Positions 5,433 to 31,109 of a DNA stretch of 32,033 nt are shown here, piece after piece (position 1 is the first letter of the stretch; each line of letters starts with the position of its first letter). The notes under the pieces are model-generated. The model did not search any database, was not told the origin of the DNA, and worked only from the letters and a program-made list of their open reading frames with translations. The stretch is from a virus, in the IMG/VR virus record IMGVR_UViG_3300032294_002843, positions 1 to 32,033 of that record. The stretch is one strand, 5' to 3'. The position numbers and the translations under genes are program-made.

Positions 5433-5647
5433 TTAGAGAGAACAGCGATCGCCCAGCTTGGGAAATTATCTTTATAGAACCATGTTTCGATAGTTTGTCT
5501 TTTGGGTGGCTTACCCTCAGTCCCCTCGAAAAAAGTAGATATTTTTCTAACGGCATCATTAATACACATTTTTTTATAGCCGTGATCGCCCATTAATAAT
5601 CCTTGGGCTTTTGGGAGTTTGTCCGCGATCGCTTGCATCCGTGCCAT
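5429..5647 (-). CDS. Small protein at head of left operon, possible regulator, 72 aa
   Basis: AGGAG lies eleven bases before the ATG. The product begins MARMQAIADKLPKAQG and has a short helical pattern with RQTIETWFYKDNFPSWAIAVL. That stretch resembles the second half of Cro/XRE-like domains, which recognise when to bind and then have a 'P-x-W' turn. It faces the divergent plus-strand gene at 5769 across a 120-bp control region, which is where phage and plasmid switch regulators often sit. HTH assignment is tentative. Confidence 0.55.
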   Translation of the reverse strand: MARMQAIADKLPKAQGLLMGDHGYKKMCINDAVRKISTFFEGTEGKPPKRQTIETWFYKDNFPSWAIAVLSK

Positions 5648-5651
5648 AATT

Positions 5652-5744
5652 TTAATTACTCCTAGCAGGTAATAGCTGTTTGGGGTGAATATCCTCCTCT
5701 CCGGTTGCGTCGGATTGGGGGATTATTTTTTCAGTGTACACCAT
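5652..5744 (-). CDS. Possible 30-aa leader peptide
   Basis: An ATG ORF of 30 codons (begins MVYTEKIIPQSD, ends LPARSN) whose stop lies four bases before the ATG of the 72-aa gene. Its 3' part contains the AGGAG used by that gene. GCGGAA precedes its own ATG. It could be a leader peptide coupling translation, or chance. Nothing is recognised in the sequence. Confidence 0.3.
   Translation of the reverse strand: MVYTEKIIPQSDATGEEDIHPKQLLPARSN
5734..5741. promoter_or_regulatory. Palindrome GTGTACAC in divergent control region
   Basis: The region 5648-5768 separates the minus operon from the plus genes. It contains the perfect 8-bp palindrome GTGTACAC next to the ATG of the possible leader peptide. 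No clear -35/-10 pair is seen on either strand. It may be an operator for one of the adjacent small DNA-binding proteins. Confidence 0.3.
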
Positions 5745-5768
5745 TTCCGCTAAATTCGTGCTAACTTA

Positions 5769-6167
5769 ATGGGACAATCTACAAATAATTTTATAGTGGA
5801 ACGCAAAAAACCGCAGACAAAGCAAGAGCTAGAAGCCGATTCAGTCAATCACCCAGAACGGGGTAAAGTTGACGGAAAACCAGTTGTAAGCGATGCACCC
5901 CGCGAACTTAGAGGGTGTGTGCCAGCCGAACTCAAAAGAAAATTCCTCAGAGTTATTGCCTGTTATGGGCTTGATAATTCTACTGGGGTGCAACAAGCGC
6001 TCACACTCTATTGGAACGAAAACAGAGAAGCGGTAGAATCTCACGAACGGCAAAAGTCTGAAGAATTGGGAATTTCTGTTGCAGAAGTTCAGAAAAAAAG
6101 CTATGGACACTCCAAAGCTAGGAGTAGACAGAAGAAATTAAATTTAATGGGTGGTGACAATGAGTAA
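5769..6167 (+). CDS. Ribbon-helix-helix-like protein, 132 aa
   Basis: The N-terminal half (1-45) is polar and probably disordered. Residues about 45-85 (RGCVPAELKRKFLRVI followed by STGVQQALTLYW) match the strand-helix-helix pattern of small ribbon-helix-helix DNA-binding proteins, and the C-terminus is Lys/Arg-rich. It is the first gene of a three-gene plus operon, and its stop overlaps the start of the HAD gene. No ribosome binding site is obvious before the ATG, so the message may have a very short leader. Likely a regulator or plasmid/phage accessory protein. Confidence 0.6.
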   Translation: MGQSTNNFIVERKKPQTKQELEADSVNHPERGKVDGKPVVSDAPRELRGCVPAELKRKFLRVIACYGLDNSTGVQQALTLYWNENREAVESHERQKSEELGISVAEVQKKSYGHSKARSRQKKLNLMGGDNE

Positions 6168-6672
6168 AATTCTATTTTTGGACTTAGATGGTACTGTCCG
6201 CAAAAGTAAATCTGGCGCAACTTTCATCAATGACCCCTATGACCAAGAATTGATTGATGGGGTGGAAGATGCGATCGCCCGCTACCACGACTACAAAATA
6301 ATTGGAGTCACGAATCAAGGTGGTGTAGGCGCTGGTTTTAAATCTTTAGAGGATTGTTTCAAGGAACAACGCCAAACCCTAAAACTATTACCTCAAATGA
6401 GTTTGCTGTTATTTTGCACAGATAATGGTGACTCAATGTATCGCTATCTTCAGCGGTCAAGCCTTGAGATACCCACATTGTCAAAATCAAAGCGTTATGG
6501 GAACTTCCGAAAACCTAATCCTGGAATGATTGTATTTGGGATGTCGTATTTTGATATTGACAAGAAACCCGAACAAGTATTAATGGTGGGCGATCGCTCA
6601 GAAGACCAAGAGTGCGCCGCCAATGCCAACATCCCTTTCCTATGGGCAGAGGATTGGAGAAATGACAAATAA
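6160..6672 (+). CDS. HAD-superfamily phosphatase (HisB-N/PNKP-phosphatase-like), 170 aa
   Basis: All four HAD motifs are present: FLDLDGT near residues 5-11 (nucleophile Asp and acid Asp), GVTNQGG at about 49 (motif II Thr with the HisB/GmhB-like signature), RKPNPGM near 118 (motif III Lys), and VGDRSEDQECA at about 140 (motif IV acidic pair). The TNQGG and KPNPGM strings point to the HAD-IIIA group, which removes phosphates from sugars, histidinol phosphate or 3'-ends of nucleic acid. A nucleic-acid 3'-phosphatase would suit a phage, but the substrate cannot be told. The ATG at 6160 lies within the end of the upstream gene; GTG at 6151 would add three residues. Confidence 0.85.
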   Translation: MSKILFLDLDGTVRKSKSGATFINDPYDQELIDGVEDAIARYHDYKIIGVTNQGGVGAGFKSLEDCFKEQRQTLKLLPQMSLLLFCTDNGDSMYRYLQRSSLEIPTLSKSKRYGNFRKPNPGMIVFGMSYFDIDKKPEQVLMVGDRSEDQECAANANIPFLWAEDWRNDK

Positions 6673-7398: not shown

Positions 7399-7524
7399 AT
7401 GATCGATAAACAAGAGCGATTCCGCCAAATTATGAGCAGGTACAACAAACTGGGATGGATGCCTAGAGAGGATTTGGACTGGGTTTTGAAGACTTTAGCA
7501 GAATTACTAAAGAATCAGGAATAA
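7399..7524 (+). CDS. Small 41-aa protein
   Basis: An ATG ORF with a promoter-like pair directly upstream. The product begins MIDKQERFRQIMSRYNKLGW, is highly charged and helical, and ends LAELLKNQE. Its last 10 bases overlap the 3' end of gene L on the other strand. Unrecognised; length and charge fit a small regulator. Coding status is moderate because no ribosome binding site is visible. Confidence 0.4.
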   Translation: MIDKQERFRQIMSRYNKLGWMPREDLDWVLKTLAELLKNQE

Positions 7525-8459
7525 GTATTCAGTCCCGGCGCTCCCCCAAAAGGCAGATCCACCGCAGTTCCAAACCGAGTTTCACACGCCGTAAGTGTCT
7601 TGGCGCATACATCCAACGCCGGATCTAAAGTAGCCACATTGTTGATAGTGAAGCCACCGCCTAAATATCCACATTCAGCAGCCCGATAACGCCATGAGCA
7701 TGACCGCAACAGGGGACGGGCTGGCAATGTCACGCCCTCAACATCAAATGGTGATCCGAGCCGAAATTGAACAGCGAGATAGGTCTCTGATACTAACTGC
7801 TCAATCACGAATATTTGCGGTAGCAATTCCTTGATCGAATCGCCTTCATTCTCGCCACCATCTAAAAATTGCCTCTGAGTGACGCGGCGTTTTACCGTCG
7901 TTCCCTCTAATCGGTAGTTAGGGTCAGTCTTGCACTGAGTCAACCAAGTAGAGACGACACGCCCAATATTGGAAACCGTTAATTGTGGCGTGGGGATTGG
8001 TCCCTGCCCGATTAGGTCAAAACCTTCAGACTCGCAACCAATAGCGGCGTATGCTTGACCCTCGAACGACACCCCGACATAGTTGCAGATGTAAAGGGTT
8101 TCCGATGGTGAGGATAGGTTGTAGTTACTGATCTCAAATAACTCAATGGGTGAGTCAGGGTTTAGGGATAGGAGATTGCTGATAATTGGCATTTTATTCT
8201 TATAGTTGCCACGAAAAAGCCCGTCATTGCTGACGGGCTTTGCGGATTCAAAAGGCTCTCCGTTTTTGCCATAAAAAGAGTTGTGGGATTCGTACCCACC
8301 TCTTTCATATACGTGTTCCCAGTAACCATTGGGGTCGTTTCTCTTCCCCTGAGAAACTCCGATATACTCGGTTACGTGGTAAGAACCGGTTCTTACCACA
8401 GTTCTTTCTTCCTTGATCACGCCGCTTATAACGGCATTAATTAATTTTTGACTTGCCAT
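7515..8459 (-). CDS. L: Tail-tip protein L (lambda gpL-like) with an N-terminal extension
   Basis: From residue 90 on (ATG at 8192), this is a lambda gpL-type minor tail protein. It has the conserved C-terminal cysteines as C-x8-C (CSWRYRAAEC) and C-x6-C (CAKTLTAC), the same spacing that holds a 4Fe-4S cluster in gpL, and ends with the family's FPFGG-like string (here DLPFGGAPG). The L part is 225 aa, close to lambda L (232 aa). Residues 1-89 are not part of gpL: they begin with a good ribosome binding site (AAGGA, ATG at 8459), read as an unknown small protein, and run in frame into L through a terminator-like hairpin. Either a fusion protein is made, or a small gene and L are expressed separately. 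The L domain acts in the tail tip at the cell surface. Confidence 0.85.
   Translation of the reverse strand: MASQKLINAVISGVIKEERTVVRTGSYHVTEYIGVSQGKRNDPNGYWEHVYERGGYESHNSFYGKNGEPFESAKPVSNDGLFRGNYKNKMPIISNLLSLNPDSPIELFEISNYNLSSPSETLYICNYVGVSFEGQAYAAIGCESEGFDLIGQGPIPTPQLTVSNIGRVVSTWLTQCKTDPNYRLEGTTVKRRVTQRQFLDGGENEGDSIKELLPQIFVIEQLVSETYLAVQFRLGSPFDVEGVTLPARPLLRSCSWRYRAAECGYLGGGFTINNVATLDPALDVCAKTLTACETRFGTAVDLPFGGAPGLNTYS
8199..8213 (-). promoter_or_regulatory. 15-bp element also found before the tape-measure gene
   Basis: On the minus strand the element reads CGTGGCAACTATAAG and ends 6 bp before the internal ATG of L (8192). TATAAG works as a -10 box with ATGACG 17 bp upstream as a possible -35. 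The identical 15-mer lies at 31091-31105, 25 bp before the tape-measure ATG. A shared late promoter is the simplest explanation. Confidence 0.45.
8214..8241 (-). terminator. Terminator hairpin inside the L reading frame
   Basis: On the minus strand AAAGCCCGTCA pairs over 11 bp with TGACGGGCTTT around a GCAA tetraloop, followed by TTTTT. This is a textbook intrinsic terminator, yet it lies in an open frame (residues about 73-83) and 22 bp upstream of L's internal ATG. It probably ends the upstream small gene's transcript. Confidence 0.75.
8376..8399. repeat. 24-bp perfect palindrome
   Basis: GTGGTAAGAACC is followed directly by its exact reverse complement, with no spacer, in the codons for residues about 21-28 of the N-terminal extension. 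It could be a strong operator, a cruciform or a nuclease/modification target. The chance of such a perfect 24-mer in 32 kb is low. Confidence 0.7.
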
Positions 8460-9093: not shown

Positions 9094-9438
9094 TTAACCA
9101 AACCTCCTAACCTGCTCAAATTTCCCGCTAAAAGCCGCCACCGTCACACCCTGCTGCTGAATAGTCCACTCTTTACATATATACAGTTTCCCGTCATCTG
9201 TCACGCCACCATCAAGCGACAATCTAAATGGTGAACCACGCCGCGTCCTGAGAAATTCGTCTACCTCTGCAAAATTAATAATATTTACGCTGATATCCCA
9301 CGCGCTGCTAATGGTGTTGATGCCTTTGGTGGTACGCTGTTCTACTCCAACCTCACCATATTTAGTTTTGGCAATATCAGCGGTTTCTGTTTTTGGATTG
9401 GACCAGGTAGGGACAAGGGGAATTATAGGGTAAGTCAT
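9094..9438 (-). CDS. M: Minor tail protein M (lambda gpM-like), 114 aa
   Basis: The length matches lambda M (109 aa). The family's late pattern is visible: a segment with EVDEFLRTRRGSPFRL in the middle, a KEWTIQQQG strand, and a C-terminus ending SGKFEQVRRFG, like the terminal FEQV of gpM. gpM is needed for tail-tip assembly together with L. The start overlaps the stop of the upstream gene as ATGA. Divergent sequence means that the family call rests on pattern and position. Confidence 0.75.
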   Translation of the reverse strand: MTYPIIPLVPTWSNPKTETADIAKTKYGEVGVEQRTTKGINTISSAWDISVNIINFAEVDEFLRTRRGSPFRLSLDGGVTDDGKLYICKEWTIQQQGVTVAAFSGKFEQVRRFG

Positions 9439-13404: not shown

Positions 13405-13431
13405 ATAACCACAAATATTAATTGTGGTTAT
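13405..13431. promoter_or_regulatory. 10-bp-arm inverted repeat at the J start
   Basis: ATAACCACAA at 13405-13414 pairs exactly with TTGTGGTTAT at 13422-13431 around a 7-nt loop. The right arm includes the GTG and the first two bases of the ATG of gene J. It could be an operator or, in the RNA, a hairpin that hides the start codon. Confidence 0.6.
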
Positions 13432-15694
13432 GCCGAAAAAACAATTTAAAGGTTTTGGCGGTAGTGGCGGTGGTGGCAAACCTCCAAAACCACCGGAAAC
13501 CGCTATATCAGGGACTTCTGTTTCTGTCGCATCAGTTCTAGGGATTGTCTCTGAAGGGGAAATTGAGGGATTGGTAGACGGGCTAAAATCTGTTTATCTT
13601 GATGAAACTCCTATCCAAAACGCTGACGACTCCCTAAATTTTGACGGGTTCACCTACGCCTTTAGGCTGGGGACTCAAGGGCAAAGCAGGATGCCGGGTT
13701 TTGGGGATGAGGTGACAAGCGAAACTAGCGTGGCTGCTGACGTTAAGTTCAACTTCCCAATTACCCGCACTATCACTAATGCCAATTTAGATATTATCCG
13801 CGTTCGGTTAGGCGTGGTTTTGCAAGAATACCCACCAGACGGGGGCGTACTGGGCTTAAATGTAGGATTTAGGATTTATATTAAACAAGGCGCGGGGGCG
13901 TTCGTTCTCGTTCATGAAGGCAATATAGGCGGGAGATTTGCGACTATAACAGAGTTTGAGTATGCCTTTGCAGTTAATAACGCAGGTGGTACGGTTTCGA
14001 GTTTCAGCGTCCGCGTAGAACGAACCACCACGCAAGACGCAGACGAGACAAGATATCAGCGGATATTAAAATGGCAATCGTACACGCAAGCCACAGAAAC
14101 CAAGCTTGCCTACCCCAATAGCGCGTTGTTTGGGTTTACTTTCAATGCGGCGCAGTTTCAATCCTTACCCCAAATATCCCTAAAACTAGCAGGGCGGAAA
14201 ATTCAAATACCCAGCAACGCTACACCTACCGCAAGCAGGGGATTAACATTTAGTGGAACTTGGAATGGAACTTTTATCACGCCATCGGTAGCAGTGGCAG
14301 ATCCGGCATGGATTTTATACGACTTAATCACCAATACCCGCTATGGGCTTGGGCGGTATATTGATGCAACTCAGATTGATAAATGGGCATTGTACGAGAT
14401 TAGCCAGTATTGCAACGAATATGTAAGCGATGGCTATGGTGGCACTGAGCATAGATTCCAGTGTCACTTGCTGCTAGAGGGTAAGGACGAGGCGTATAGA
14501 ATAATTCAACAATTTCTGTCAATATTTCGTGGCTTCTCCTACTGGATGAGTGGCGCAATTGGATTTGTGGCAGATAAACCCGGATCACCGGTGGCACAGT
14601 TCACCCAGTCGGACATTGAAGAGGGGATGTTTTCTTATACTCGGACGGGTTTGAAAACACGAAACACTATTGCACTAGTAACATGGGCAAACCCTGATGA
14701 TTTCTACCGCCAATCCGTAGAAGCAGTAGATGACCCCGCCGGGATTGCCAAATATGGGGTTCGGGAAATAGAATTATCTGCTTTTGCTTGTACGTCAAGA
14801 GGTCAAGCGCGACGGGCTGGGTATGCCACGTTGCTAACCGACAGATTGGAGCAGGAAACGGTAACTTTTAAGTGTCGTGCTTACGGGACTTATACCAAAC
14901 CCGGCGACATTATCAGGATCATGGACTCAAAAAGGGCTAATATTCGCTATGGGGGGCTGATTGCAGCGTCTACCACCACCTCAATCACCTTAGATAACCC
15001 CGTAGAACTGCTAGAGGATGAAACCTATACCCTCACGGTAATGCTTGCTGATGGCACAGTTCAGGAGAGGGTTGTCACAAACTCCCCAGAAACAGCCGCG
15101 ACAATAATCACCCTTGATCTAGCGCTATCATCAGCACCACCACCCGAATCAAACTGGATTCTTGCCTCATCTACAATACAGCCTCAGTTATTTCGGGTTT
15201 TGAACCGCGTGCCGAGTTCCGGTGGCACGGAAATGATGCACGAAATCACAGCTATTGAGTACAACCCCGCCAAATATTCTCAAATTGAAAATGGCTGGAG
15301 TCTTGAACCACTACCAGCACGGCGTAATCCTCCCGTCGTTGTGTCGGCCCCCAGAAATATTGCCCTTAGTTACCGCACCATTGACCTATTTGATCTAAAT
15401 GCAGTATGGGATTTTCCACTACTGGGAAGCGAACGCGACCCCTACATCACAGGCTACACCATTGAATTGCGCCTTGGTGACGATGGGCTGTGGGGGAATA
15501 CCAGATTTGAGACAACTGCCTCTACGCAATTTGCAAACATATCAGCAGGGAAATATTACATCAGAGTCGCCGCTGTTGATATCAATGGCAGGTCATCGCG
15601 TTGGGTAGTTTCTGACCCGATACTCCTGACTAAATACAACTGGGTGGGAGTTCTCACTTCTCGCTATGCCTCTGTATTTGCAATGGAATTTTAA
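13430..15694 (+). CDS. J: Host-specificity / tip attachment protein J (lambda gpJ-like), 754 aa
   Basis: The protein starts with a Gly/Lys/Pro-rich stretch (KGFGGSGGGGKPPKPP) and the family's VASVLGIVSEGEIEGLVDG, as in lambda gpJ. A central region includes ADPAWILYDLITNTRYGLG, a hallmark of J-type tip proteins. The C-terminus (about 635-745) has fibronectin-III-like strands (ITGYTIELRL, GKYYIRVAAVD). It is shorter than lambda J (1132 aa), lacking most of the variable distal part, so receptor binding may lie in the following proteins. GTG at 13424 is an alternative start. It heads a four-gene plus operon. Confidence 0.9.
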   Translation: MPKKQFKGFGGSGGGGKPPKPPETAISGTSVSVASVLGIVSEGEIEGLVDGLKSVYLDETPIQNADDSLNFDGFTYAFRLGTQGQSRMPGFGDEVTSETSVAADVKFNFPITRTITNANLDIIRVRLGVVLQEYPPDGGVLGLNVGFRIYIKQGAGAFVLVHEGNIGGRFATITEFEYAFAVNNAGGTVSSFSVRVERTTTQDADETRYQRILKWQSYTQATETKLAYPNSALFGFTFNAAQFQSLPQISLKLAGRKIQIPSNATPTASRGLTFSGTWNGTFITPSVAVADPAWILYDLITNTRYGLGRYIDATQIDKWALYEISQYCNEYVSDGYGGTEHRFQCHLLLEGKDEAYRIIQQFLSIFRGFSYWMSGAIGFVADKPGSPVAQFTQSDIEEGMFSYTRTGLKTRNTIALVTWANPDDFYRQSVEAVDDPAGIAKYGVREIELSAFACTSRGQARRAGYATLLTDRLEQETVTFKCRAYGTYTKPGDIIRIMDSKRANIRYGGLIAASTTTSITLDNPVELLEDETYTLTVMLADGTVQERVVTNSPETAATIITLDLALSSAPPPESNWILASSTIQPQLFRVLNRVPSSGGTEMMHEITAIEYNPAKYSQIENGWSLEPLPARRNPPVVVSAPRNIALSYRTIDLFDLNAVWDFPLLGSERDPYITGYTIELRLGDDGLWGNTRFETTASTQFANISAGKYYIRVAAVDINGRSSRWVVSDPILLTKYNWVGVLTSRYASVFAMEF

Positions 15695-15697
15695 AAT

Positions 15698-16132
15698 ATG
15701 CCTACACCACGTCCTTACATTGGGGGGGACGGAAACCCCTATCAGCGATCACTCACAACCTCGTCCGCCGGCACAACAGACAACCCCGATGTTGCTCATT
15801 TTGCCCTTGATTATTCAGAAGAATCGCCAATTACCGGGGCAACGATACCGACCGGGGGGATAGGAGCAATCGGTTGGTTGAGTGCTATCTGGAGACAGTT
15901 ATCAGGGAATCAGCGAACCCCCGGTTTTCTCAGCAGAACTACCACAGGCACGGTAACAGCAGGGGCTAAATCTGTGGTTATCAAAAACGTTGGTGGTGCA
16001 GTAGGAACGGTTTTAACGGTCAATCTGCCAGCAGGGGAAAGCCTCAACTTTACGACTGCTGGGAACGACACTATCGGGGCGATCGCTTACAACGCCACCG
16101 GAACAACTTTTTTAATCACTGAAACAAGATGA
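15698..16132 (+). CDS. Virion structural protein with beta-sandwich C-domain, 144 aa
   Basis: It begins MPTPRPYIGGDGNPYQRSL. The N-part has polar and Gly-rich loops, and the second half (TGTVTAGAKSVVIKNVGG to LITETR) is a beta-rich domain seen in many tailed-phage structural and decoration proteins, probably a jelly-roll-like fold. The ATG follows the J stop by 3 bp. The last codon region overlaps the next start (ATGA). Likely part of the tail tip or fibre base, given its place after J. Confidence 0.65.
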   Translation: MPTPRPYIGGDGNPYQRSLTTSSAGTTDNPDVAHFALDYSEESPITGATIPTGGIGAIGWLSAIWRQLSGNQRTPGFLSRTTTGTVTAGAKSVVIKNVGGAVGTVLTVNLPAGESLNFTTAGNDTIGAIAYNATGTTFLITETR

Positions 16133-16911
16133 CAAACGCGATAATCACTACAGCCAACTCCATGCCGGGATCACAAGCTGTTTTTCTAAATTCCTTGACC
16201 ACAGCAATGCAGTCCGCAGGATTCACCCTACTGGACTCCTACACAGCCAGTGGGAATGAAGCGCGGGTTTACTCTTTTGTTGCTGATGCCGCAAAAACGT
16301 TTGGAACGCTGATCATAGAAGCCGCCTTCAGTGCTGCAACTACCATGAATATTCGTGGATATAGGACATGGGATGCAGGAGCTAATACTGGTACAAACGT
16401 TAGTACAAATGCACCCAAAGCCATAGATCCCGCTGTATCACACGGGTTTCATATTTGCAATCACCCTGAAGTAAGGGGAGTCAATATAATTGTTGGTGGC
16501 ATACCCCGCGCTTTTGTCGGGTATTTCCGACCACTTACGCCTAGTTATGACGAAGATCTATATCCCTTTGCATTTATAGAATCGGGGGGGTCTACAAGCT
16601 GGCAATCCAGTACTGGGCTTAAACCCATATCATCATCGCATCCCTACGGTGTTATTACGCTTGAGACAATTGATGTAAGGATGACAGAACCCGACGCAAC
16701 GAGAGGGAATAAAAGACTACTCGTCCCCGCAGCCATAAGCCGGACTGGCGACAGTATCGCGGAATTTTCCAGTGATTGCGTGCTAGGCGCATCCAATGGC
16801 ATGAGTGCTTTAGACGTTTTTCAGGTAACTCCGGGGGCTGAGGAATATCAGCTTTTTGACGGAGCCGCTGCGCCGACTAGTCTCGCTAGATTCGCCGTGA
16901 GGGTTGTATAA
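16129..16911 (+). CDS. Tail-tip or fibre-associated protein, 260 aa
   Basis: The product starts MTNAIITTANSMPGSQAVFL and has a mixed sequence with no strong repeats. It includes SFVADAAKTFGTLIIEAAFSA and a late segment with FAVRVV. Both ends overlap neighbours (ATGA before, TAATG after), so it is coupled in the J operon. No family is recognised; context suggests a receptor-binding or baseplate-like component. Confidence 0.55.
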   Translation: MTNAIITTANSMPGSQAVFLNSLTTAMQSAGFTLLDSYTASGNEARVYSFVADAAKTFGTLIIEAAFSAATTMNIRGYRTWDAGANTGTNVSTNAPKAIDPAVSHGFHICNHPEVRGVNIIVGGIPRAFVGYFRPLTPSYDEDLYPFAFIESGGSTSWQSSTGLKPISSSHPYGVITLETIDVRMTEPDATRGNKRLLVPAAISRTGDSIAEFSSDCVLGASNGMSALDVFQVTPGAEEYQLFDGAAAPTSLARFAVRVV

Positions 16912-17360
16912 TGCCAAATTTCCCCGCAGTCAAACTTAATGGAACTACAAAAACAGCTACAGCGGTTTTTCAAGCCGTAAAGACCCGTGCCTTTGAACAG
17001 GTAATCGTTGATTGGACTTTTGAATATTGCAACATCCTGGTTTTGCCCCCAACGTGGGAAGCTTCGATGCGGGTAACACCACCATTCAATAATTCAAAGC
17101 TAGGGGATGGCTACATTCAAATAGTGTGGAACGGATTAGAAGAAAAAGAAGAATGGCAAATCACATCCCCGATTTTCAATGAAGTGGATATTGATTCCAA
17201 ACTTGCAAAATTAAACGAGTTCACTGTGGGCGGCTTTTCGTGGAGTCCTGACAACGGAATAACTGTGCCACGCAAGCGGTACACGGCAGATGCTTGGACG
17301 GTAAGGACACTAGGAGAAGGAGCGTACCAGTTGAGTACGACTTTCCTTAAATTGACGTAG
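16911..17360 (+). CDS. Possible second M-like minor tail protein, 149 aa
   Basis: The middle and end (GDGYIQIVWNGLEEKEEW, a central segment GGFSWSP, a strand KRYTADAWTV, and the end LSTTFLKL) follow the layout of the lambda gpM/minor tail fold: a GYxQ-like turn, a WxSP loop and a final pair of strands. It is longer than the M gene at 9094-9438 and differs in sequence. It is the last gene of the J operon. Family call is moderate; it could equally be an unrelated tail-tip protein. Confidence 0.5.
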   Translation: MPNFPAVKLNGTTKTATAVFQAVKTRAFEQVIVDWTFEYCNILVLPPTWEASMRVTPPFNNSKLGDGYIQIVWNGLEEKEEWQITSPIFNEVDIDSKLAKLNEFTVGGFSWSPDNGITVPRKRYTADAWTVRTLGEGAYQLSTTFLKLT

Positions 17361-17427: not shown

Positions 17428-17595
17428 TTACCCCATACCCCACGCGTCACCAAGTAATTTTAAAAACTCAACATCGTTGATCATCATCTGTTTGTAATGC
17501 GCCACAAGCTGCTGCTTCACCTGTTCCGGTGACATCTGCTGTACTTGCATCTTAAAAGCGGCGATTTGAAACTGCTGCTCAGTAGTTAATTGCAT
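17428..17595 (-). CDS. nblA: NblA-like phycobilisome degradation protein, 55 aa
   Basis: The 55-aa product carries the NblA signature. It begins MQLTTEQQFQIAAF, then has MQVQQMSPEQVKQQLV, HYKQMM and FLKLLGDAWGM. Cyanobacterial NblA proteins have the same run (LS-EQQF near the start, a QVQ-x-MS motif, then a Y-x-QM and a final LL-x3-WG). NblA recruits phycobiliproteins to the Clp protease so that phycobilisomes are dismantled; freshwater cyanophages are known to carry nblA. The gene is short (family about 55-65 aa), on the opposite strand from its neighbours, and separated from the tail genes, as expected of an auxiliary metabolic gene. It is divergent from rha across an AT-rich control region. 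Confidence 0.92.
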   Translation of the reverse strand: MQLTTEQQFQIAAFKMQVQQMSPEQVKQQLVAHYKQMMINDVEFLKLLGDAWGMG

Positions 17596-17601
17596 ACATT
17601 A

Positions 17602-17634
17602 TTAGAGTATCAATAAAATTATTGTATAATCAAT
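17602..17634. promoter_or_regulatory. Divergent nblA/rha control region with inverted repeats
   Basis: CAATAA at 17611-17616 faces TTATTG at 17619-17624, then ATTG-TATAAT-CAAT at 17621-17634. TATAAT at 17625-17630 could be a -10 box for rha (TTAGAG 17 bp upstream is a weak -35). It lies 6 bp from the nblA start, so nblA's own promoter would overlap it. A hairpin GGGAAG/CTTCCC (17655-17676) follows in the rha leader. Confidence 0.4.
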
Positions 17635-17719
17635 AGGTAGTGTCAGCACGGCGAGGGAAGCCATCTACTACTTCCCAGTCCGTTACAGCCGACAGTCCAC
17701 TCAACCGAAAAAATGAACT

Positions 17720-18511
17720 ATGGATAGTTTAACAAAGATTGACGTAATTGAACAAGGTGATGTTTTAGTTGTAGATTCTCGGCTAATTGCCGATGAGTTG
17801 GGGATTGAGCATCACACTTTCCTGAAAACGGTAAATAAATACCTTGACCGCATTGAATCAAGGTTTGGGGTTGTTCGATTTGTAGTAGATAAACCCCTAG
17901 AGGGTAGTCAGGGCGGTCGTCCTGAGAAATATGCACTTTTGACCGAGCCACAAGCAACCACACTGATGACATTTTCTAAAAACACAGAAAAGGTTGTAGA
18001 TTGCAAATTAGCACTTATAGAAGCATTTGAAAGAGCCAAGTCCGTAATAAAAACCGTAATTCCTCAACAGAATGATCAGATCCGCGAATTAGAATTACGA
18101 TTGCAACTTGCACAGGCGGAAATGCAAAAAGCGCTTGCAGAAAAATCCGTACTTGACACACGCCATTTAATTGTCGCCACCTGTCCTGAACCCATGCAGC
18201 AGAAAATATTAGGGTTTGAGGTTGTCAAGGAAATTGAATACAGGGATCGGATTATTCAAGACAACCAAATTATTAACGATGGGACAACAGTCAACAAAGC
18301 CGCGCTATGCAAACGTTACGGGTTTATGACTAAAGGCGGAAAACCAGATTACGCAAAACTAAATAAACACCTTGAATCACTCAAAATCCCTGATTACGCT
18401 TGGGAAAATGTACCAAGCGTCCGTGAAAACCAAGAATTACGCCGCGACTACCTGGAGAAATTGGACAAGAAGATTCTTGATGATTCCCGTCAATTGTGGT
18501 TTGTGGAGTAA
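17720..18511 (+). CDS. rha: Phage regulatory protein, Rha family, 263 aa
   Basis: The first 110 residues show the pRha pattern: a strand LVVDSRLIADELGIEHHTFL, then GVVRFVVDKPLEGSQGGRPEKYALL, then TEPQATTLMTFSKN and VVDCKLALIEAFERAK. The rest is a coiled coil (about 115-150) and a C-terminal domain with TKGGKPDYAKLNKHLESL. Rha proteins are phage-borne regulators that interfere with host or phage growth decisions; their exact role is not settled. Start: ATG at 17720; a tiny MNYG ORF (17713) overlaps it, which may tune translation. A strong terminator follows. Confidence 0.85.
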   Translation: MDSLTKIDVIEQGDVLVVDSRLIADELGIEHHTFLKTVNKYLDRIESRFGVVRFVVDKPLEGSQGGRPEKYALLTEPQATTLMTFSKNTEKVVDCKLALIEAFERAKSVIKTVIPQQNDQIRELELRLQLAQAEMQKALAEKSVLDTRHLIVATCPEPMQQKILGFEVVKEIEYRDRIIQDNQIINDGTTVNKAALCKRYGFMTKGGKPDYAKLNKHLESLKIPDYAWENVPSVRENQELRRDYLEKLDKKILDDSRQLWFVE

Positions 18512-18636: not shown

Positions 18637-19050
18637 ATGAAAATTCTACCTCTTGCGATCGCGCTCTCGTTGCTACCAATTCCGACAATGGCGCAAAATC
18701 TTCCAGCAGGCAACACATTGACGGGATACTTGGAATTAGTTGCGGCTGGTATTGAGGGAACGGACGATGACTGTTATGGGACGGGAAGATTTGGTGACGT
18801 AACTGGATCAATGCCTGTGATTGTTAAAGATGAGCAGGAAAAGATAATTGCTACAGGATCTACCAAGCCCGGCAAGCGCCCAACAGAAAACCCTACTGTT
18901 AGGTGTATCTTTTCTTTCAACATTAAAAGCATACCAAAATCAAAGTTTTACAGCATTGGAATAGGAGATAGAGGGGCAGCCATTTTTTCCCAACAAGAAT
19001 TAGATGATCGGAAGTGGGAAGTAGAGTTTGTATTAATGCGGTCCCGATAA
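18637..19050 (+). CDS. Secreted small protein with signal peptide, 137 aa
   Basis: The first 20 residues (MKILPLAIALSLLPIPTMAQ) are a clear signal peptide with cleavage after TMA or MAQ. The mature part is about 115 aa with two Cys (DCYGTGRFG and VRCIF) that could form a disulphide, a strand-rich pattern (GSMPVIVKD), and a C-terminus WEVEFVLMRSR. No family is recognised; such small exported proteins are common in cyanobacteria. The ATG lies directly after the rha terminator, leaving no room for a ribosome binding site, so translation control is unusual. It converges with the tape-measure gene (stops abut). Confidence 0.65.
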   Translation: MKILPLAIALSLLPIPTMAQNLPAGNTLTGYLELVAAGIEGTDDDCYGTGRFGDVTGSMPVIVKDEQEKIIATGSTKPGKRPTENPTVRCIFSFNIKSIPKSKFYSIGIGDRGAAIFSQQELDDRKWEVEFVLMRSR

Positions 19051-22000
19051 CTACTTATTCAACGCTCCGCCGGGTCTCTGTTGTTTCTGAATTTCCGCCA
19101 ACACGGCAGAACGGACGGCATTTTGCAACTGTGGCACGTTCACGGATGTATCACTCTGTCCGCCGTTTACGCTGACGGGTACGCTGATATTCACGGTTGA
19201 TGACTGGCTGGGCGCGGAAAAGTTCATGTTAGGCGTAGACGTGCTACCAACTACACCACCTCCGGCGTAATTCAACACCCGTTCCATCTGCAATTCTTCA
19301 AACCGCTTAGATTGCTTGGGGTTTAATATCCTCTCCCCGCCATTGAAAACTCCCAATATTGGTGTTCTGCCGCCGGACTGAATCCTCTCTCGGTTCATCG
19401 CGTCGCTGATCGCCCCAATTACACCACCATCAGCAAAGTTGGGGACTTTACCGCCTTTACTAAAACCAAACAAACCACCGCCGACACCACCTGCACCAAA
19501 CAACCCGGAGAAGAGGGAATTTAGAGCCATGTCCAGCACACCATTAAGAATCTTGTCCGAGATGTCTGTAAGTGCGTCTCCTAGTGACTTCGTTCCGAGG
19601 ATTACCTCTTTTATTCCTGTGGAGAATCCAGATATTAATTGCTCTTGCAACATATCTTTTATCGCCATATCAAAAGTTTTGGCGGACTTAGTGATGTCGT
19701 CCAATTTCTTCTTATTTAACTCATCCAACGCGGCGGACATTTCCTTGATCTGATCCGCGTTAAATGCATCTTTAGGAAACTTGAGATTATATTCATTGAT
19801 GCTAATCATCAACTGTTCCTGAGAGCGTCGGGCGGCTTCCATCTGCTTCTCTATTTCCAGTTCCCTTGTCAGTCTATTAGTTAAGAACTGATTTGCCCTG
19901 CCACCTTTTAAAGTTTCAATACTAGAAGATCGAAGGTCAAATTTATTCTGGTTTAAAAGGTCGAATTTTTTGCTAGAAGCATCTAGTTTAGCCTGTGGGA
20001 TTGTGACAAGTTCCGCAAGTTTGATTTGGTATGCGTTGTCCGCTTCGGCGTTAGATAATTCTTGCCGATAATTGCGATTAGCCTTCAATTGCTCTCTCAA
20101 CTTTTCACCAGGCTTATTTAACAAAACATTACCCTCAATCTCTAGTAACTGTTTCTTGTAAGCATTAGTCAATTCATTGGTTTTCATGGTCAATTCATTG
20201 GTTAATCCAACCAAACTCACCATGCCATCCTTGTTATCGATCGCAAACCGTTCATTATCCAACTGCAATGATTTCATCTGCGAGGACTGGATAGTTTGCG
20301 CTTTGGTTAATTCCTTGGTGGCTTGATCAATCCGCTTAACCGTATCAGCATAATTAAAGTTAAGGTCAATGCCTTCTTTTTTCACAGAATTAACATTGAG
20401 AATGGCTTTAAATTCCTTCTGAAAAGCATCTTCACTCATGTTACCGCCCTTGCCACCGCCTTCATAATATCGCTTTTGGAGGTCTAGCAATTGTTGGTAT
20501 TGATCACGGTTTATGCTCAATAAATCAATGTTTTTCTGGAGCGCTGGAATACTCAAAACCAATGGATTTAGCGGGTCAATCTCATCTAATTTCTGTAGTG
20601 CCTGTAGCTGCTGTTGTAACTGTTCAATGGCCTTTGTTTGTTGCGCTATATCCTGTTCACTTAATCTGAAAAATTCTTTCTTGTCAAAATCTGCTATTGA
20701 CGCTTTGAGTATGTCATCAACATTAGATTTTAAGAAAGCCAGATTGTTTTTAGCTTCTGCATTACGGAACGCTGTCGCTTTGAAAGTTAAGTCATTTGTT
20801 TGAATTGCATCTGCGGCTAACTTCGGATCATTAGGGAATCTCTTCATTGCCAGATTAAACGCAGCTTGTAAATCTGGTTTTTGTGCGATCGCTCCATCCG
20901 TATCATCAATAATCTGCTGTAGTGCCTCTATATCCTTCTCGATTTTTCGGCGCAAATCAGCAAGCTGAATTCCAAATCTGTCAGCATTGCTCATATTAGG
21001 GGATAGCCCCTCTAATACGGTTCTTTGCGTTCCTAATGTAGAATCTTTCGTGCTGCTGATGTCTCCCAATGCCGATTTTCGAGTTGATCTAATAAATCTG
21101 TAAGCTTCTAACCTTTGCTTCAGTGCATTTTCCTCGATTTGCTCAGGGTCTAAATTGCTGTTAATTTGATTAGTTTCGAGTTGCTGGGCTGCTGTATTTA
21201 ACCTGAGTCGACCAGCTTGTGTAACTAGATTTTGCTGGCTGTTAGGGTTGATCGGTCTACCCTGCATAACATTGTTGTTCAACGCTTGTAGATTGCGCTG
21301 AATGTTGCTAAAAAATACGTTCGTTTTGCCAGTAGGAGATCCTTGCCCGTAGGGGTTTCCCGCCAAAGATGCCCATTCGCTAGAGGCATCCATGTATCCA
21401 GGGCGGTTTATAACCGATTTAAAATTACCTTTCTTGATGTCGTCCAATATGCCTCGGTACATCAAGCGAGATACTGCTAGAATCTCCTGTGATTGTGGCT
21501 TAAAGTCCCTCAACCCTAATCTGCTAAATTCTTCTTTAGCTACAAAATCCATTGTCTGATAACGCCCAGTGGCACTAGAGACTTGATTTCTACCCCTGCC
21601 ATACCGGACTCTTCTGCCAGGGTGTGATCCTAGTTTGTTGGGATCAAAAGACTCTCTGCCCTTGATGTCGTCGCCAATCAAGTAACCATAGCCACCTTGC
21701 TCCGCGCCTTTTGTTCCTACTTCCGCTACTGCAATGGCATCCAAGAACGCCCTAACATTTGGGTTTTGCAACGCTGCCATAGCTTTTTTGCCCCTAGCAG
21801 TCAAGCCGGATAAATCAGATGGCGCATAATTAGCCGCTTTACCCCATAAAACGCCGCCTAATTGGGGGGCTTGTGATTGTGCAACGGGTTTAACGGATTG
21901 AGAGGACTGTTTGCCAGTCGCCACGCCGCCATACTTGCCGCCCATGAAATCCTGTAGAAATTTCTGAGGGTCTGTGTATTTCCCGTTGACTCTGACCCCG

Positions 22001-25000
22001 AAATCTAGATGCGCTCCGGTAGATAAAGCGTCCATCGTCACCTTGCCTAACTTTTGCCCCGCCTGTACCTGCACCTGTTTACCGATACCGCCTAGAGCAT
22101 CCTTGATACTAGCTAAAGACAAGTGACCGTATTCCAGTGTTATTTTTTGCCCTGACGGTAAAACGCTATTTACAAAAACTCCACCGCTATTGCCCGTCCA
22201 CTTCTTAGAGGTGGCCACTCCAGGCAAACTAGCTAAAATTCCCGCATCTTGACCAGCTTTAGCTCTTGAGTCAAAATCTATCTTACTATGTTGCCTTGCG
22301 CCTCTATCCCTAGAACCGTAGAACCCCTGCTGTCGAGTTGGCTTGTATCTAAGTAGATCCTCGACCGTTGTACCTTGGATTGGTGAGAAAATTTTGTTTT
22401 TATTTGCGCCCAAGAAATTAGTGATAGCCCCAACCGGATCACCGCCAAGCTGGTTTGTACCCTGTTCTAGTTGCTGACCCGCTTCCTTTCCAAATATGCC
22501 AGTAACCGCAGATTGCACCCCACTAGCTACATTCTGCAACAAACTGGGAGCATTGCTAATTGAACCTAGCCAAGTTGCTGTTTTAACTTGCAAATCATTA
22601 ATTTTATTGCCAATTCCGTCAAATCCGTTTTCAAAAACATTGAATAAACCAGCGAACCTGCCGCCAAATCCTTCTATCCATGAATTGCTGCTATTGTCTA
22701 AATCTTGAATACTTTGGTTTAGTTTATCCAGTTCTGCATTAGCTTTTTTAGCAGCCTCTACAACGTCATTTGATAAGCTACTCGCAACGTTTTTAACACT
22801 GCTATTGATAGTTTCAACTGTTCCGTCTATTTCCTCAAGACTGAGGTTAAAATTATCAGCAACACTAGAATCTAATGGAATTATTTTCCCTGGTAAATTT
22901 CGCTGCAATTCAGATGCTTGTAGTTGAATATCCTGAACATTATTCTCGTAATCAACCCGTTGCTTTCTAGCTTCTAACTGCTGTTTTTCGATTTCAGTTG
23001 TTTGCGAAATTATGTTAATAATTCCTTCGATAAACTGAGTATAGATGTTATCGCCAGCACCTATCAAAGCCTCTCTCAGTTTGTTTTGCATCCTAGAGTT
23101 TTCTAGGGTCTTTTGCGCTTTTTGGAACTCAATACTAACGGCTTGCGCTTCTCTAGTTGCGGTGCGGTAATAGTCGGCTACTTGTTTGGTTTGGTCTACC
23201 AAAGTTTGACGAATATCACGTTTTGCCTTAGATATATCATTGCCTAATTTAGCTAAGTTATCTTTATCGTCTCTGATGTTTTTACGTAAGTCTTCTAACT
23301 CTTTTTTCTGCTCATCAGTCTTGCCGAAACCGGTAATTGAGTTCAGATTATTGAGTGTTCGCTCTCTAATCTTTAGAATTGCCTCAACACCTGCTTTTCG
23401 TGCTTCTTGTTCTTCTAGTGCGTTGCGACTGGATTCTCTATTAAAATTACCAGGATTCAAATTTGAATTATTTAATGCCTCTTGTCTATTCGCGGTTTGA
23501 ATTGCTAATCCGCTGAGTGATCTTTCGTAGACAAGCTCAAAATCTCGCAGTGAGTTTATAGTCTGTGTATAAACTTCCTTTAACGGATCTACAGGTAATT
23601 TAGCTATTTTTTGAGACGCGGTTCTGATTGCATCTTCCATCGGCTTTAAGTCTGCAATCAGTTTCATTCTGACATCAAGGGGCATTTCTTTATTGTCTCT
23701 GATTGCATCCATCGTATCTTTAAGCCAACCTGATTTTATTTCACCTGTTTTGGGATCAAATACTCCGATTTCTTTGGCCTGTGCATCAATGTTGACAATC
23801 TCTTCTGCAGCAACCCCGCGCTGTTTTTCAAGTGCCATTAATTGCTTGTCAAGTTCAGCAATTTGTATTTTAGATGCACTGGTATTTAACAATCCTAGTT
23901 TAGAGCGTTTCTGTCCTAAACTGAATAATTGCTTGTCTAATTCTCTGACTTGATTAGCGGCTTGTTTGACATTTGTAGAGAAGTCTGTACCCGCAGTTAG
24001 TCCGGTTTCACTAAGGAATTTATTCAGTCCGTCTTTGTTAAGTTGAATGTCTTTGACTTGGTTTAGGAGTTGGGTTTGAGCTAAACTAGTTGTCGTTTCT
24101 TTCCCGGTAAAGTATTTACCAATACCGTATTTATCAGCATCTATTTTATTTTGTTTGACTGATTCTGGAGTTTCTTGATATCCAAGTATTGACGCTAAAC
24201 TCTTAGCGTTGTAAATAGGATTTAAGTTGTTCAAGCCACCCGATAAAGACCTAATCAAGCTTCTTTGGATGTTACCACCAAAACCTTCACTAGCGTTAGC
24301 TTGGTTTATAAAATCATCAGATTTAAAGCTTTTACCGCCCACCCCAAGGGCATATTGTATGTTTAATTCAAGTCCTTTAGATGGTAGATTACTACCCATA
24401 TCCTTAGCAGACTTACCAGCATTATCAAACTTATTCGCTAACTCATCCAAAGACCCGTTTATTGATTTAATAGCGTTATTAATCCCCGTTGCCATCTTAC
24501 CAATAGAATCGCTGACTGGGTTCGTGAAATCACTTCTAGCAAACAGAATTACACCTAATGCTAATGCGGCTTCTGCGGCTATTGGAAGCAGCATTTTTAG
24601 GGATGAACCAATTTTGTTAATCCCAAAACTGACAATATTTCCCCAGTCACTTCTCGCAGACTGCCTAACTAATTTGTCGCCACTAAATAAGGCTGTTAGT
24701 GGGGTAAGTATTGTACCTAGCGAATTTTTAGCTCTGTCAATACCCTGTGTAAATCCGTTCCATACGTTAGACCCAAAAGTTTTAACTGCTGATTTTGTGT
24801 TATCAACTTTCTGCACAAACCCAGTCCATGTAATTTGTGACATTGAATTTTTAGCTCTATCAATACCCTGTGTAAAACCGTCCCAAACATTAGAACCAAA
24901 ATTTGTTACGGACGTTTTTGCGCTGTCCACACCCTTAGTAAATCCGCTCCATACGTTACTAATCCCTTGTCCGGGGCTTACTTGCCTCCTTGGGGTATAT

Positions 25001-28000
25001 TTACGCTGCTCATCAGCATTTCGCGCCATGTCAAACGTATTGACAAACAACTCTGGAATAATTGTGCCTATGGGTTTAAGCATTCCTGCAAAGTTACCCA
25101 AAATATCTCCAAACCCTTTAAAAATATTCATCCCTGTTGGGAATAAAAACAGTTTAGCTAATGTCTGAACCTGTTCAAACATCAACACCAAAGCACCCAA
25201 TTCCACTACGCCAGACGGAATTATTCTAAATAAACCACCAAGCCCGTCTATCATGCCTTGGAACGGATTCCCCGCTTCTTTTTTGCCTACAATGTCGCTA
25301 AACAGAGATTTACCTGCAAATGCTCTATTTAGATTATCTAGGGCGGTTGCCATAGCCACAGCCATGCTACCTACACCCTTCATCATGTTATCCATCAGGT
25401 CATTTTGCGCTCCTAGCCAACCATCTGCTACATCGGCAATGATTCCTATGTAAAACGGTGCGAGTTGCAACATTAATTTACCTAACCCGACAGTGATCAT
25501 GGTTTGCATATTTGTCAGGAATTTAGCTATAGGATTAGATTGCAAAATTACAGCCAACCCCACACCGACAACAGCCGTTACCCCAATCATCAGAGAATTA
25601 AACAACGGAATTATCTGGTCTAAAGCGTCTCTGAATATTCCTAGCAGCCCTGCCCCAAAGTTGGTGAACATTGCAAATGTTCCGCCAAATGCCTTAGTCA
25701 GTTTGATAGCAATATCAAAGCCTATGTTGCCTAATTTGGTTAACGCAGACGTGAAACTTGCTGTACCATTAGCCGCAGATTTACCGTAATCCTCGCTTAA
25801 AGTTTTGGCGACTTTAGGAAGAATGTCTTCTGACAGAATTGCGCCTTTGCTGATTAATTGCCCTAATTCCGCAACGGAGACACCCATTGATTTAGCGAAA
25901 ACACCCATCGCTGGGGGAAATTTTTCACCTAATTGTTGACGCAGTTCCTCCATGCTTAATTTGCCTTTTGCGAGTATCTGCGTATATGCCATAAACACTA
26001 AACCTGCATCTTGCCCGTTTATGCCTAACGCACTTAATGAAGCGGAAATACCCTCATACAATTCCCTAACGCCATCGCCTTCTAATTTTGTGCCTCTAGC
26101 AGCGATCGCTAACTGAGAATAAGCTTGGATACCTTCTCTAACCGGAACATTTAACCGATTAGCGACACCTTGGGCATACTTCATTTCACGTTCACCACCC
26201 GCAGGTGAACCACCCAAAAAGTTTAGGCGACGTTGTAATGGTTCAACCTCTTTAATGGCGTTTGCTAACCCTGCTATTTTTCCACCGACCATTACAGCCA
26301 ATCCGCCCAAAGCCCCCATCAACGGCATTAAGGGGATTAGCAGCGGTAGCAAGCTGGCCGCTATCGTGGTAATCGGTGCAATCATTGTAGAGATACTTGC
26401 ACCAAACCCTAGTATATTGCCAAAAACACCCTCTTTGTCACCTTTCAGTGCTTTATTCTTGAAAGTTTTACCAATCTCATCAAAGAAGTCGCTAAAAGTT
26501 TCCCTGGAGACAACCGTACCTTGTTTAATTTTCTTGATTATGTTTCCGGTTAAGTCTCCTAAAACATCCATCCCCATTGCTTGTTTTGCCTTGATTTTCA
26601 TGTCATCAAAGGCGTTACCCCAATTCTTCTGGGCTTCTTTGAAACCTTTCAGCAATGCTTGACCTAATCCTAAACCCTCTTCAGCAAAGGCTTTATGAAA
26701 TGCTGTAATACCCGCTATAGCAGTACCCATTACTAGGGTTAGCTGCTTCATGTCCACTTTGAAGCCGATTGTCCGTAGAATCGTACCCGCAAGCTTGGAA
26801 GATTTGCCTATTACACCCTCTACATCACCCTGTGCGTAGGATTCGGCAATACCTCTCACACGCCCACCAATGCCCTTGCCACCTGTATTGGTGAAGATAC
26901 CTAAGTTAGCAAAGTTGGCTATACGCCCTTTTACCATTGCCTCAATAGCTACACCGACCGCACCGGACACGCCGAACTGTTTTAGAACAGCGGAAACTAA
27001 CATTTGTCCAGTGTTTTCAACTAATTTGGAAACATTACCACTAGCACCAACACCCCCAAGATTTGCACTTATTTGTTTGGTGATTACTTCCATTGGTGAA
27101 GTAATTGGAGACTTACTACCTTTGGATATTCCTAGAGTGTTTGTGACGGCACTCATGAAGCCTGTTTTCTCTAACTTAATACCCGTTAGAGATTTGAATA
27201 AATCGTTTAGGAATCCTGGTTTAATTGCTAAATTGTTGTTGAGAATTTTAACAATTGTGTCACCTAAATTTAATCCTTTTAATCCTAATATTGGCACTAA
27301 CAAAGGTAGTAGCTGAGGAATTAACGCCGCAGTATTTCCGCTTGTTAAAGTCCGTAATATAGAACCCATTCCTGATGCACCAATCCCAGCGCTTCCTAGT
27401 AACGATCCACCACCTGCTCTAAGGGCGTTACTAATAAATACACCCAATGTAGCGTTACCCTGTTTTTGTGTGTCTGTAAAACTTCTTAGTAGCGTCTGGA
27501 ATAGATTTTGGAACGTGGATTGCGTGTTATCAAAAAGTTTTTGCCCTGGATGTATAGGTGTGATGGGTTGGTCTGGAAGAGGATTAAAACTGTTATTTCT
27601 TCTATATTGTGTTTGTTGTGCATGAAAAACCCAATTTGGATCTGATGATGGTTTATGTGGGTTTTGAGTACCCCAAGGATCGGAAGTCACAAAGGAACTA
27701 TTTTTTGAACTTGTGTTAGGAATATTAGGTATTCCGTAGCCGATTGAAGTGTTCCAGGGATCAGGTATCCCATTTATTGCTCGATTTCTAGACATCATTT
27801 CCATTGGAGTGGGTAAGCCAACGGAACGCTGCATATTAACAGAAGTGGCGGTAACGTCGCGTTTTGCTTGTTGTAATATTTTAGGTATTTCGGATGTACT
27901 CACTCCGGTATAGTCTGCCGCTTCTTTGCCGTATTTAACGCCAACCGCTAAATGCTGTGATGCTTGTTCGTTACTATATTTTCCTTCTCTAACTAATTTG

Positions 28001-31000
28001 GATATCCTGTTATTTTCAGCTTCTACGTTAGCAGCGTAATTAGCAGCACTAGCTTTTTGATACTCTGTCGCTGTCTCACTTTCGTTAACAGTTTTCAGAA
28101 TTAAATCAGCAATTCTCTTATTAGCTAAAACCAGGGATGCTACAGCACCATTTTCAAAACCTTTCCCAAAATCCAAACCTATGGACTGCATGACTTTGGA
28201 TGGTGATGCAATCTGAAATACCGCCTTAGTTGCGCCAATCACACTGCTAAATCCAGTGTGTATTGCTTCCAGCATTGGGGATCTACCCTTGCTAAAACCG
28301 CTGACAAAGGCATTAGGTAGATTTTCACCTATTTGATCACCCTGTTGTTTTAATTGTTTCTGAATTTCAGGGTGTAATAAGAACTTGTTTAAATCGCCTT
28401 TACTGTCCTTATATGCTTTAGTCCCAACACTTAATAATTCATCGGTACGACGCGCAGATACTTCATGAGTTTGGATATATGGTTTTCCTCCAACCATATT
28501 ATGAAAAGCGTGTCCTAATGCAAAATCTTTATTCTTAGAATTGATAAAACTGAATAATGCTTTACCTTCTGAATTGGTTTTAGTAAATGCTTGTTCACCA
28601 CCTAAATCCTCTAGTTTAAATCCCAGTAATTTACTAATTCCTGAATGCTTTTGAAGTAACTTAAATATTTTAGATCCCATGTCCTTGGGAAGCTTGAAAG
28701 GTGTCAGAGAGTCATCATCTGCCCAGTCGTAAACATCATTTATGTTTAGTCCACCTTGTTTATTTTGATTGTAATTAAAACCACCTAGTGTGTAGCGAGT
28801 ATCCGGTAATTTTGCACCATAACGACTTGGAACAACACCACTGTCAGGCAAAACACCTTTAGATTTTTGAGCCTCTTCAATCATCCGAAATACTGTTAAT
28901 ATTTCAGCTTCTTTGGCTATCTGAGGATTCATTCGATTGACATCCGTTGCACCTTGATAAAAAGCTCCCAGATGTCTAACAGGGGTTGCGATACTTTTAG
29001 GAACTATCCCCATATTCACAGCACCGCTCAACATATTGCCTAAAATAACCCCTGGTAAAGTCGTTCTACTCCTGCCGCTTTCATAAACGTTCTTAGTAGC
29101 TTGTGCTGCACCGCCGAGGGAATTTTCAATTACAGCATCAAACGATTTAATGCTTTCGGATGGTATTAAATTAGGTATTTGCAGACCTTTTTTAATTGTA
29201 CCTGTGACACCTTCAACCGTATTTTTTAAAATTCCTAATCCTTGTTGTAACCCAATAGACAAACCCTGGAGTATATTAACCCCAATAGGAATCATGTTTT
29301 TAGCAGGTGACGCAATACCAAAAGCCTTTTTAATTGCTAATAAATAAGCCGTCGCATTTTCAATACCAAACTTTGCAAAAGCTTTGTTGTCAACACCAAT
29401 TCCTAAGCCTGCTACGACGTTTTTACCAATAACCGCCGCTTCACCTTCCGCCTGTCTTCCTGCTGTAAAATATGCCGATCTGATATTGTTGACACTGCGA
29501 GTAATTGGTGCTTTTGTGTCGCGTAACTTGTTAAAACCTTTCTGCTTTAAACCCGCTGCTTGTCCTTCTTTTAGTAACTCGTCAATCTTGGCTTTAGCCG
29601 TCTCAGAATTTTTGGTGAAGTCTCTATAAATCTGATCAGCTAAGTCATAGTCGCCTAAATCTTTGGCAGATTCTAGTAAATTTTTGAATGTTGAATAAGC
29701 CTTCTGATGTGCTGTTTTAATTTTAGTTATTTCATTGGCGACTCTTTTTACTGTCTGATTCCCGCCACCGACGGGACTACCTTTTACGTTAAAATTGCCT
29801 ATTTCTTCAAGCACATAACCAAAGTTTTTGTTACTTTCATGTGCTGCTTTCTCAAATGGTGTAAATGTGTTTTCTAGTAATACTTTTTGAGCTTTTGGTT
29901 TTATATCAACTATTGGTAATTTTTCAGGTTTTTTGACAACAGGAATATTTAGTGGTGCTTGTACTACAGTAGGTTTTTCATCTTCATCAATAGGAATAAT
30001 GATCCGTGATGGTCTAGCGGCTTCTGTTGATGGCGGCGCGGACTTAGATGCGGTGGTCGCTCTTTGCGCTGTAGCCGTAGCTTTTTGTTTAGAGCTTGCA
30101 CTAAAATCACCTTTGAACAATTCACTGAAAATACTATCAAGCGAATCAGTCAACGCTTTATTTAATTTACTAACAGCGTAAGTTTGAACGGATTTACCTA
30201 ATGATTTAACAGCTATTTGTGAACCGTCACTAATAGCTGTCAATAGCTTATTTTCCTTCTTGACTTTAATTCCAAATGCGCCTAACAAGTTGTTTCCAGC
30301 TTGCTCACCCATCTTTTTAAAGTCCATGCCAAGTTGTTTGGCAAAAGTGTCTTGTAATCCCTTGCTAACCTGTTTCCCTAAGTCATTGGAAATGCCTTCA
30401 GAGAATCCCGTGATTAAGTCTTTAGCAGGTTTTAAAACCGTTTTTAGCGCATCGCCTATTAACTGATTGCCAATCTGCTTTTGTAAGTCTCCAAAACCGC
30501 TTTTAAGTTCACCAACAATATCTTCAATTCCCTCTTGTTTCTTACTACCACCTGAAGAACCGCCGCCGCTAAAACTTTTGCTACCTGCTTTAATTCCATC
30601 TGCTACGGCTTTGGCGATCATATCTTCCATACCGTCAAGCCCCTTGCTGACTCCTTTCTCCACGCCGTCCGCCACGCCATCGGTTACGGACTTGGCGATA
30701 TCACGTTTAGATGTATCCGTCAATTTGGCGTTGATCCGTTGCTCAATGGTGACGGTGTGTTTATTCTGAGTGAGTTCTTTTAGGGTTTTATTTAATTCTG
30801 TCAATTCCCCATCATCTACAGTTGGCGTGAGGGGGTTGTTTTTAAAATATTGGTTAACTTCCCTGAAGTGCCTGTACTTCAAGTCTAAGTGCTTGTTGAG
30901 GTCGTACAGTGCGGAGTCGTCAACCTCAATGGTCAATGATAATTTCTGGAATGACTTCTCAATACTTGCGGCGGCGTTAGATGCGGCTTTTTTTGCCTGT

Positions 31001-31065: not shown

Positions 31066-31090
31066 AACTGGCAACTGGTAAGGGATTTTC

Positions 31091-31105: not shown

Positions 31106-31109
31106 CCTC

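Follow-up and report, generated by a model that had tools for sequence, protein, structure and literature searches.

NblA proteins are ClpC adaptors that bind phycobilisomes and lead to their degradation (PMC7966870, PMC7760959), with an N-terminal motif assigned to ClpC binding and a C-terminal motif to phycobiliprotein binding (PMC4103541). As an auxiliary gene of phages, nblA is already established, with copies in Ma-LMM01, MaMV-DC, PaV-LD, and marine phages (PMC4103541, PMC9602691); a first-pass annotation of the DNA analysed here was right that such genes are known, but too narrow in attributing them to a few freshwater cyanophages. In Ma-LMM01, nblA is expressed early during infection and above the host copy (PMC4103541), and Synechocystis or Synechococcus cells lose phycobilin when they express NblAs of phages other than ours (PMC9602691, PMC4103541).

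Here we describe an nblA gene in an IMG/VR virus contig of 32,033 bases, the whole of which is referred to below as the window. Our preferred reading, to which we assign a probability of about 0.8, is that this is a genuine phage-borne nblA of a tailed, temperate-type cyanophage, whose product would serve as a ClpC adaptor for phycobilisome breakdown. The protein resembles NblA of Anabaena/Nostoc PCC 7120 (PDB 1ojh) in its family, helix-loop-helix, EQQF...F..QVQ.MS motif, and LL...WG end; the latter, however, is the ~65-aa product of a host gene, whereas the phage protein is without the N-terminal extension and carries a glycine in place of Lys53. NblA of the Planktothrix phage PaV-LD (ORF022L) is similar in length (54 aa), and that phage also has an integrase, DnaB, and a replication initiator, but its nblA adjoins a thymidylate kinase gene rather than rha, and it has another place in the NblA tree, where its branch is long and uncertain. 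The Microcystis phages Ma-LMM01 and MaMV-DC likewise carry nblA but belong to another lineage (Fukuivirus), in which nblA overlaps nrdA and takes a different tree position. An NblA-like ORF in Nodularia phage vB_NpeS-2AV2 and its kac relatives (2AV2_141; KU230356.1 99350-99526, L100 980-1156) is 30% identical to the window protein and lies in the same tree clade, but scores 22.2 bits, under the Pfam cut-off of 25, and is thus weakly NblA-like. Annotated as hypothetical, this ORF bears out the earlier remark that so short a gene is easily missed: nblA has been overlooked or left unnamed in phage annotation. In tail protein L and sigma factor (53% and 45%), the isolates nearest to the window phage are the Cylindrospermopsis phages Cr-LKS4 and RM-2018a, while the best full-length Rha match (37%) is in Aphanizomenon phage CL131; a Pfam search of these three phages returned no nblA.

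An NblA family gene inside a phage genome

The nblA ORF runs from 17595 to 17428 on the minus strand and encodes 55 aa: MQLTTEQQFQIAAFKMQVQQMSPEQVKQQLVAHYKQMMINDVEFLKLLGDAWGMG. Judged by sequence, its membership of the NblA family is firm. The protein matched PF04485 at 45.6 bits (E 9.8e-12, hmmscan against Pfam), far over the gathering score of 25 bits, and a six-frame NblA search of the whole 32,033-base record returned this ORF as its single match (E 8.9e-13), so that it is not a chance ORF. Its best PDB relative is Anabaena 7120 NblA (1ojh, E 4.4e-9, residues 2-54). The position, strand, length, and motifs given in the first-pass annotation all proved exact, with EQQF at residues 6-9, QVQ-x-MS at 17-22, Y-x-QM at 34-37, and LL-x3-WG at 47-53. 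In an alignment with 27 relatives, V18, M21, and L30 are invariant, and the nearly invariant columns of host NblA are retained at Q7, F9, F14, Q17, S22, E24, Q25, M37, L48, and W52. The length falls within the range of 50-65 aa, and the conserved N-terminal motif, on the ClpC-binding side, is present.

Structure prediction agreed with this assignment. The helix-loop-helix that had been anticipated was modelled confidently for the monomer by AlphaFold (helices 5-19 and 23-51, pLDDT 89.9, 28 aligned sequences), with topology and loop equal to those of a control model of a canonical host NblA (helices 9-23 and 27-61). Searches of the PDB with the window model (Foldseek and VIA-align) retrieved no NblA chain, but Foldseek also retrieved none for the canonical control; it is blind to the NblA fold at such small size, and the negative search therefore says nothing about the window protein.

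The gene lies among the following features:

7515-8459: lambda L-like tail gene
9094-9438: lambda M-like tail gene
13424-15694, plus strand: lambda J-like tail tip attachment protein (phrog_31, 2.8e-202; PF13550, PF24801)
16911-17360, plus strand: minor tail protein, last of the J run and convergent with nblA (PF05939 at 25.8 bits, short of the curated 39)
17428-17595, minus strand: nblA, NblA/ycf18 family protein of 55 aa (PF04485, 1ojh match, AlphaFold, dN/dS)
17611-17700, no strand: conserved noncoding nblA-rha spacer between the start codons, hairpin-forming, a probable divergent promoter/leader region (conservation, fold z)
17618-17646, minus strand: sigma-70-like promoter match upstream of nblA, CTGACA-17-AATAAT (1 found, 0.9 expected by chance)
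17720-18511, plus strand: rha, phage regulatory protein and divergent neighbour of nblA (PF09669, 52.2 bits)
18637-19050, plus strand: gene without assigned function, separating rha from the tape measure gene (order kept in contigs G400-G402; present in Nostoc prophage G356)
19051-31116, minus strand: giant tape measure protein of 4021 aa with an M23 peptidase domain (PF20155, 4.1e-28; PF01551, 1.5e-8)
31110-31291, no strand: CRISPR array 1, 3 repeats
31492-32033, no strand: CRISPR array 2, 8 repeats, the last cut by the window end and continuing in contig G001

As first described, nblA stands opposite in strand to, and between, the J/minor-tail run (13424-17360, plus strand) and rha. From position 16522 to its right end, the window is covered at about 99.9-100% identity by an IMG/VR contig of 60,722 bases (G001), and the two combined represent at least 77 kb of the element. 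This contig adds a DnaB helicase, a large terminase, a DNA methyltransferase, a replication initiator, a sigma-70-like factor, and a tRNA-Met. With tail genes on both sides and these phage genes on the overlapping contig, nblA sits within a phage genome and not in host DNA. A further gene of G001 (173-1246) has a weak integrase match (phrog_1, E 2.5e-5) but no Pfam integrase domain, and is 42% identical to a gene near the end of prophage G356. Elsewhere in the window, positions 448-2379 encode a HerA/DUF87-like ATPase with a PD-(D/E)XK-like end, which is ~50% identical to Nostoc plasmid proteins and ~88-89% identical in related phage contigs.

Relatives of the locus in phages and prophages

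The unit of nblA, spacer, and rha is present in G001 and in G002-G004, three viral contigs that hardly differ from one another and in which an NblA 81% identical to that of the window is encoded beside rha and facing the tape measure gene. The order of modules is J, tape measure, nblA, rha in these three contigs versus J, nblA, rha, and an inverted tape measure gene in the window, and Rha has had its N-terminal domain exchanged (Rha versus Bro-N-like) while its C-terminal half is kept next to nblA. As to the tape measure gene itself, the 4021-aa version is inverted relative to J, whereas in G004 one of 1715 aa follows J on the same strand. Three other contigs (G400-G402) have rha, the gene at 18637, and the tape measure gene in the window order and no nblA, which points to nblA as exchangeable cargo at the rha site; since such closely related elements live without it, the gene is not essential. 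It is under purifying selection (dN 0.11, dS 0.61, dN/dS 0.18 between the window and G003), which argues that it is used; the amino-acid changes between these two copies lie mainly in codons 35-55.

Over 87 nt, the nblA-rha spacer shares 95% identity with G002-G004, compared to 85.5% for the wider nblA/spacer match. It folds into a strong hairpin on either strand (fold z of -2.9 on the plus and -3.4 on the minus strand), yielded no family in an Rfam search, and its core occurs, among viral contigs, only beside these nblA genes. The simplest reading is that it represents a shared divergent control region of nblA and rha. The promoter match upstream of nblA is weak, since 0.9 such matches were expected by chance, and G003 does not strictly preserve its -10 hexamer.

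Homologues of J were found in 17 viral contigs and in 6 of 391 genomes of the host order, the closest two being the prophages G315 and G356 (66% and 63%). In both, nblA recurs on the same contig as J, 11-14 kb from it, and canonical nblA copies are present elsewhere in the genome. The genes for J, M, I, L, the tape measure protein, and the sigma factor are common to the two prophages and to the window and G001, and G356 also shares the integrase-like gene. On G356:C32, chromosomal genes (S1-domain protein, GH31, amidohydrolase) precede the prophage, and on G315:C53 the tail module adjoins a SIS/glutamine-amidotransferase (GlmS-like) gene. From identical nblA position and sequence, G356:C32 would be Nostoc sp. 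NMS2 (NZ_JABXKH010000137.1). Both prophage nblA genes are intact (dN/dS 0.23). While these integrated relatives resemble the window in their set of tail, sigma, and nblA genes, their nblA lies beyond J and head to head with the phage sigma-factor gene rather than beside rha, and their NblAs are 33-38% identical to that of the window. Used as query, prophage NblA found no relatives in phages and viral contigs. Judged by these distant relatives integrated in two cyanobacterial chromosomes, the lineage is temperate, and the phage of the window itself is likely to be so too.

A tree of 57 NblA sequences joined the window and G003 copies with those of the two prophages and the Nodularia phage in one group (90/88) apart from host copies, and NblAs of Ma-LMM01, PaV-LD, and contig L171 fell elsewhere. 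Because the alignment has only 65 columns and the branches are long, with bootstrap values not settled, the tree provides weak support and suggests that phages may have acquired nblA more than once. The L171 protein (4303-4485; IMGVR 3300045902_000324, 97 kb) is a canonical-looking NblA of 84.9 bits on an unrelated viral contig, which had no other proteins in common with the window phage within the 9.5 kb compared.

Predicted activity and alternative readings

The Pfam match of the window NblA ends at position 40 of the 50 in the profile, and the C-terminal stretch is the divergent part of the protein. Bienert et al. (2006) reportedly found Lys53 of Anabaena NblA to be important for binding; the aligned residue is a glycine in both phage variants. 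An NblA homologue altered in this way might no longer act on the standard phycobilisome, and could instead pair with host NblA as a weak or dominant-negative partner, or serve ClpC as an adaptor for another substrate, for example steering or inhibiting host Clp during infection. The divergent C-terminal binding region and the clustering of changes in codons 35-55 would fit such a role, and mixed phage/host NblA dimers are conceivable since NblA1/NblA2 of Synechocystis form a heterodimer, according to a title cited in PMC7966870. We nonetheless consider this reading improbable: the window copy keeps Trp52 and the C-terminal LL and WG, selection on it is purifying, and PaV-LD NblA, about equally divergent on Pfam (46.8 bits), degrades phycobilisomes when expressed in Synechocystis (PMC4103541).

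A second alternative, and a very improbable one, is that the gene is a host nblA copy, the window then being cyanobacterial DNA, chromosomal or plasmid-borne, that includes a phage remnant, or else an assembly chimera. Nostoc plasmids do carry nblA genes and homologues of the window's HerA-like gene, and CRISPR arrays are usually host-owned; yet the best host NblA is only ~46% identical, tail genes flank nblA on both sides, the junctions recur in the independent 60.7-kb contig with the nblA/rha unit in three more, and the prophage NblAs cluster with the window away from host copies, albeit with modest support (90/88). A host chromosome origin of the window is largely refuted by the overlapping phage contig and the prophage relatives. 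Least credible of all is a chance or decaying ORF without a product: the gene is short and lacks both a strong promoter match and an obvious ribosome-binding site, but its frame is intact in two variants at 85% DNA identity (dN/dS 0.18), and independent intact copies (dN/dS 0.23) occur in the two prophages.

A phage NblA acting on phycobilisomes remains our preferred reading. Dismantling of the host antenna is the family's established role, one that heterologous expression has demonstrated for NblAs of other phages, and it is the role proposed for the window protein, whose activity is likely by analogy with PaV-LD NblA. In the mechanism that we infer, which spans dimerisation, binding of ClpC and phycobilisomes, expression timing, and benefit to the phage, a small NblA would be made from a promoter region of its own, in divergent orientation to the regulator gene rha, and would form a dimer through its helix-loop-helix. 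Its N-terminal part would contact ClpC and its C-terminal part phycobiliproteins, delivering the phycobilisome to the Clp protease. The infected cell might thereby release amino acids for the phage and suffer less photodamage.

On this reading, phage-driven antenna dismantling would extend to a lambda-tailed, prophage-forming phage lineage of filamentous cyanobacteria. What is new is nblA in this lineage, together with a conserved putative control element at nblA/rha; a literature text search of incomplete coverage found no earlier report of nblA in its prophages. Lysogens would then contain nblA of both host and phage origin, and an effect of the prophage gene on their pigmentation would be simple to test. 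A prophage of S. elongatus alters pigmentation without nblA (PMC9239245). A more speculative extension, which we regard as unlikely, is that nblA is a lysogenic-conversion gene with which the integrated phage tunes host antenna size, nblA and rha being controlled via the conserved structured spacer and the shifted C-terminus conferring a phycobiliprotein preference unlike that of host NblAs.

Host and CRISPR arrays

The phage probably infects Nostocales of an Anabaena/Dolichospermum-like kind. A planktonic member of this order is the likely host, given a CRISPR spacer of the element (31605-31640) in which 33 of 35 bases agree with plasmid pANA03 of Anabaena sp. 90, the tail and sigma similarity to Cylindrospermopsis phages, and the Rha match in an Aphanizomenon phage. 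The 36-nt CRISPR repeat (≤2 mismatches) had no match in 391 sampled cyanobacterial genomes and hence gave no host assignment.

CRISPR arrays are known in Nostoc phages (PMC4916379), and the pANA03 match suggests that the phage array targets a rival mobile element of the same host. Spacers of array 2 differ between the window (31972-32008) and G001 (L012 5436-5472), sequences otherwise almost identical, which suggests spacer turnover within the phage population. In the region of the two arrays (window 31110-32033; L012 of G001, 3005-6334), G001 encodes next to them a 643-aa TnpB/Cas12f-like protein (Cas12u2, E 2.5e-53; PF07282), possibly part of a phage-borne type V CRISPR system.
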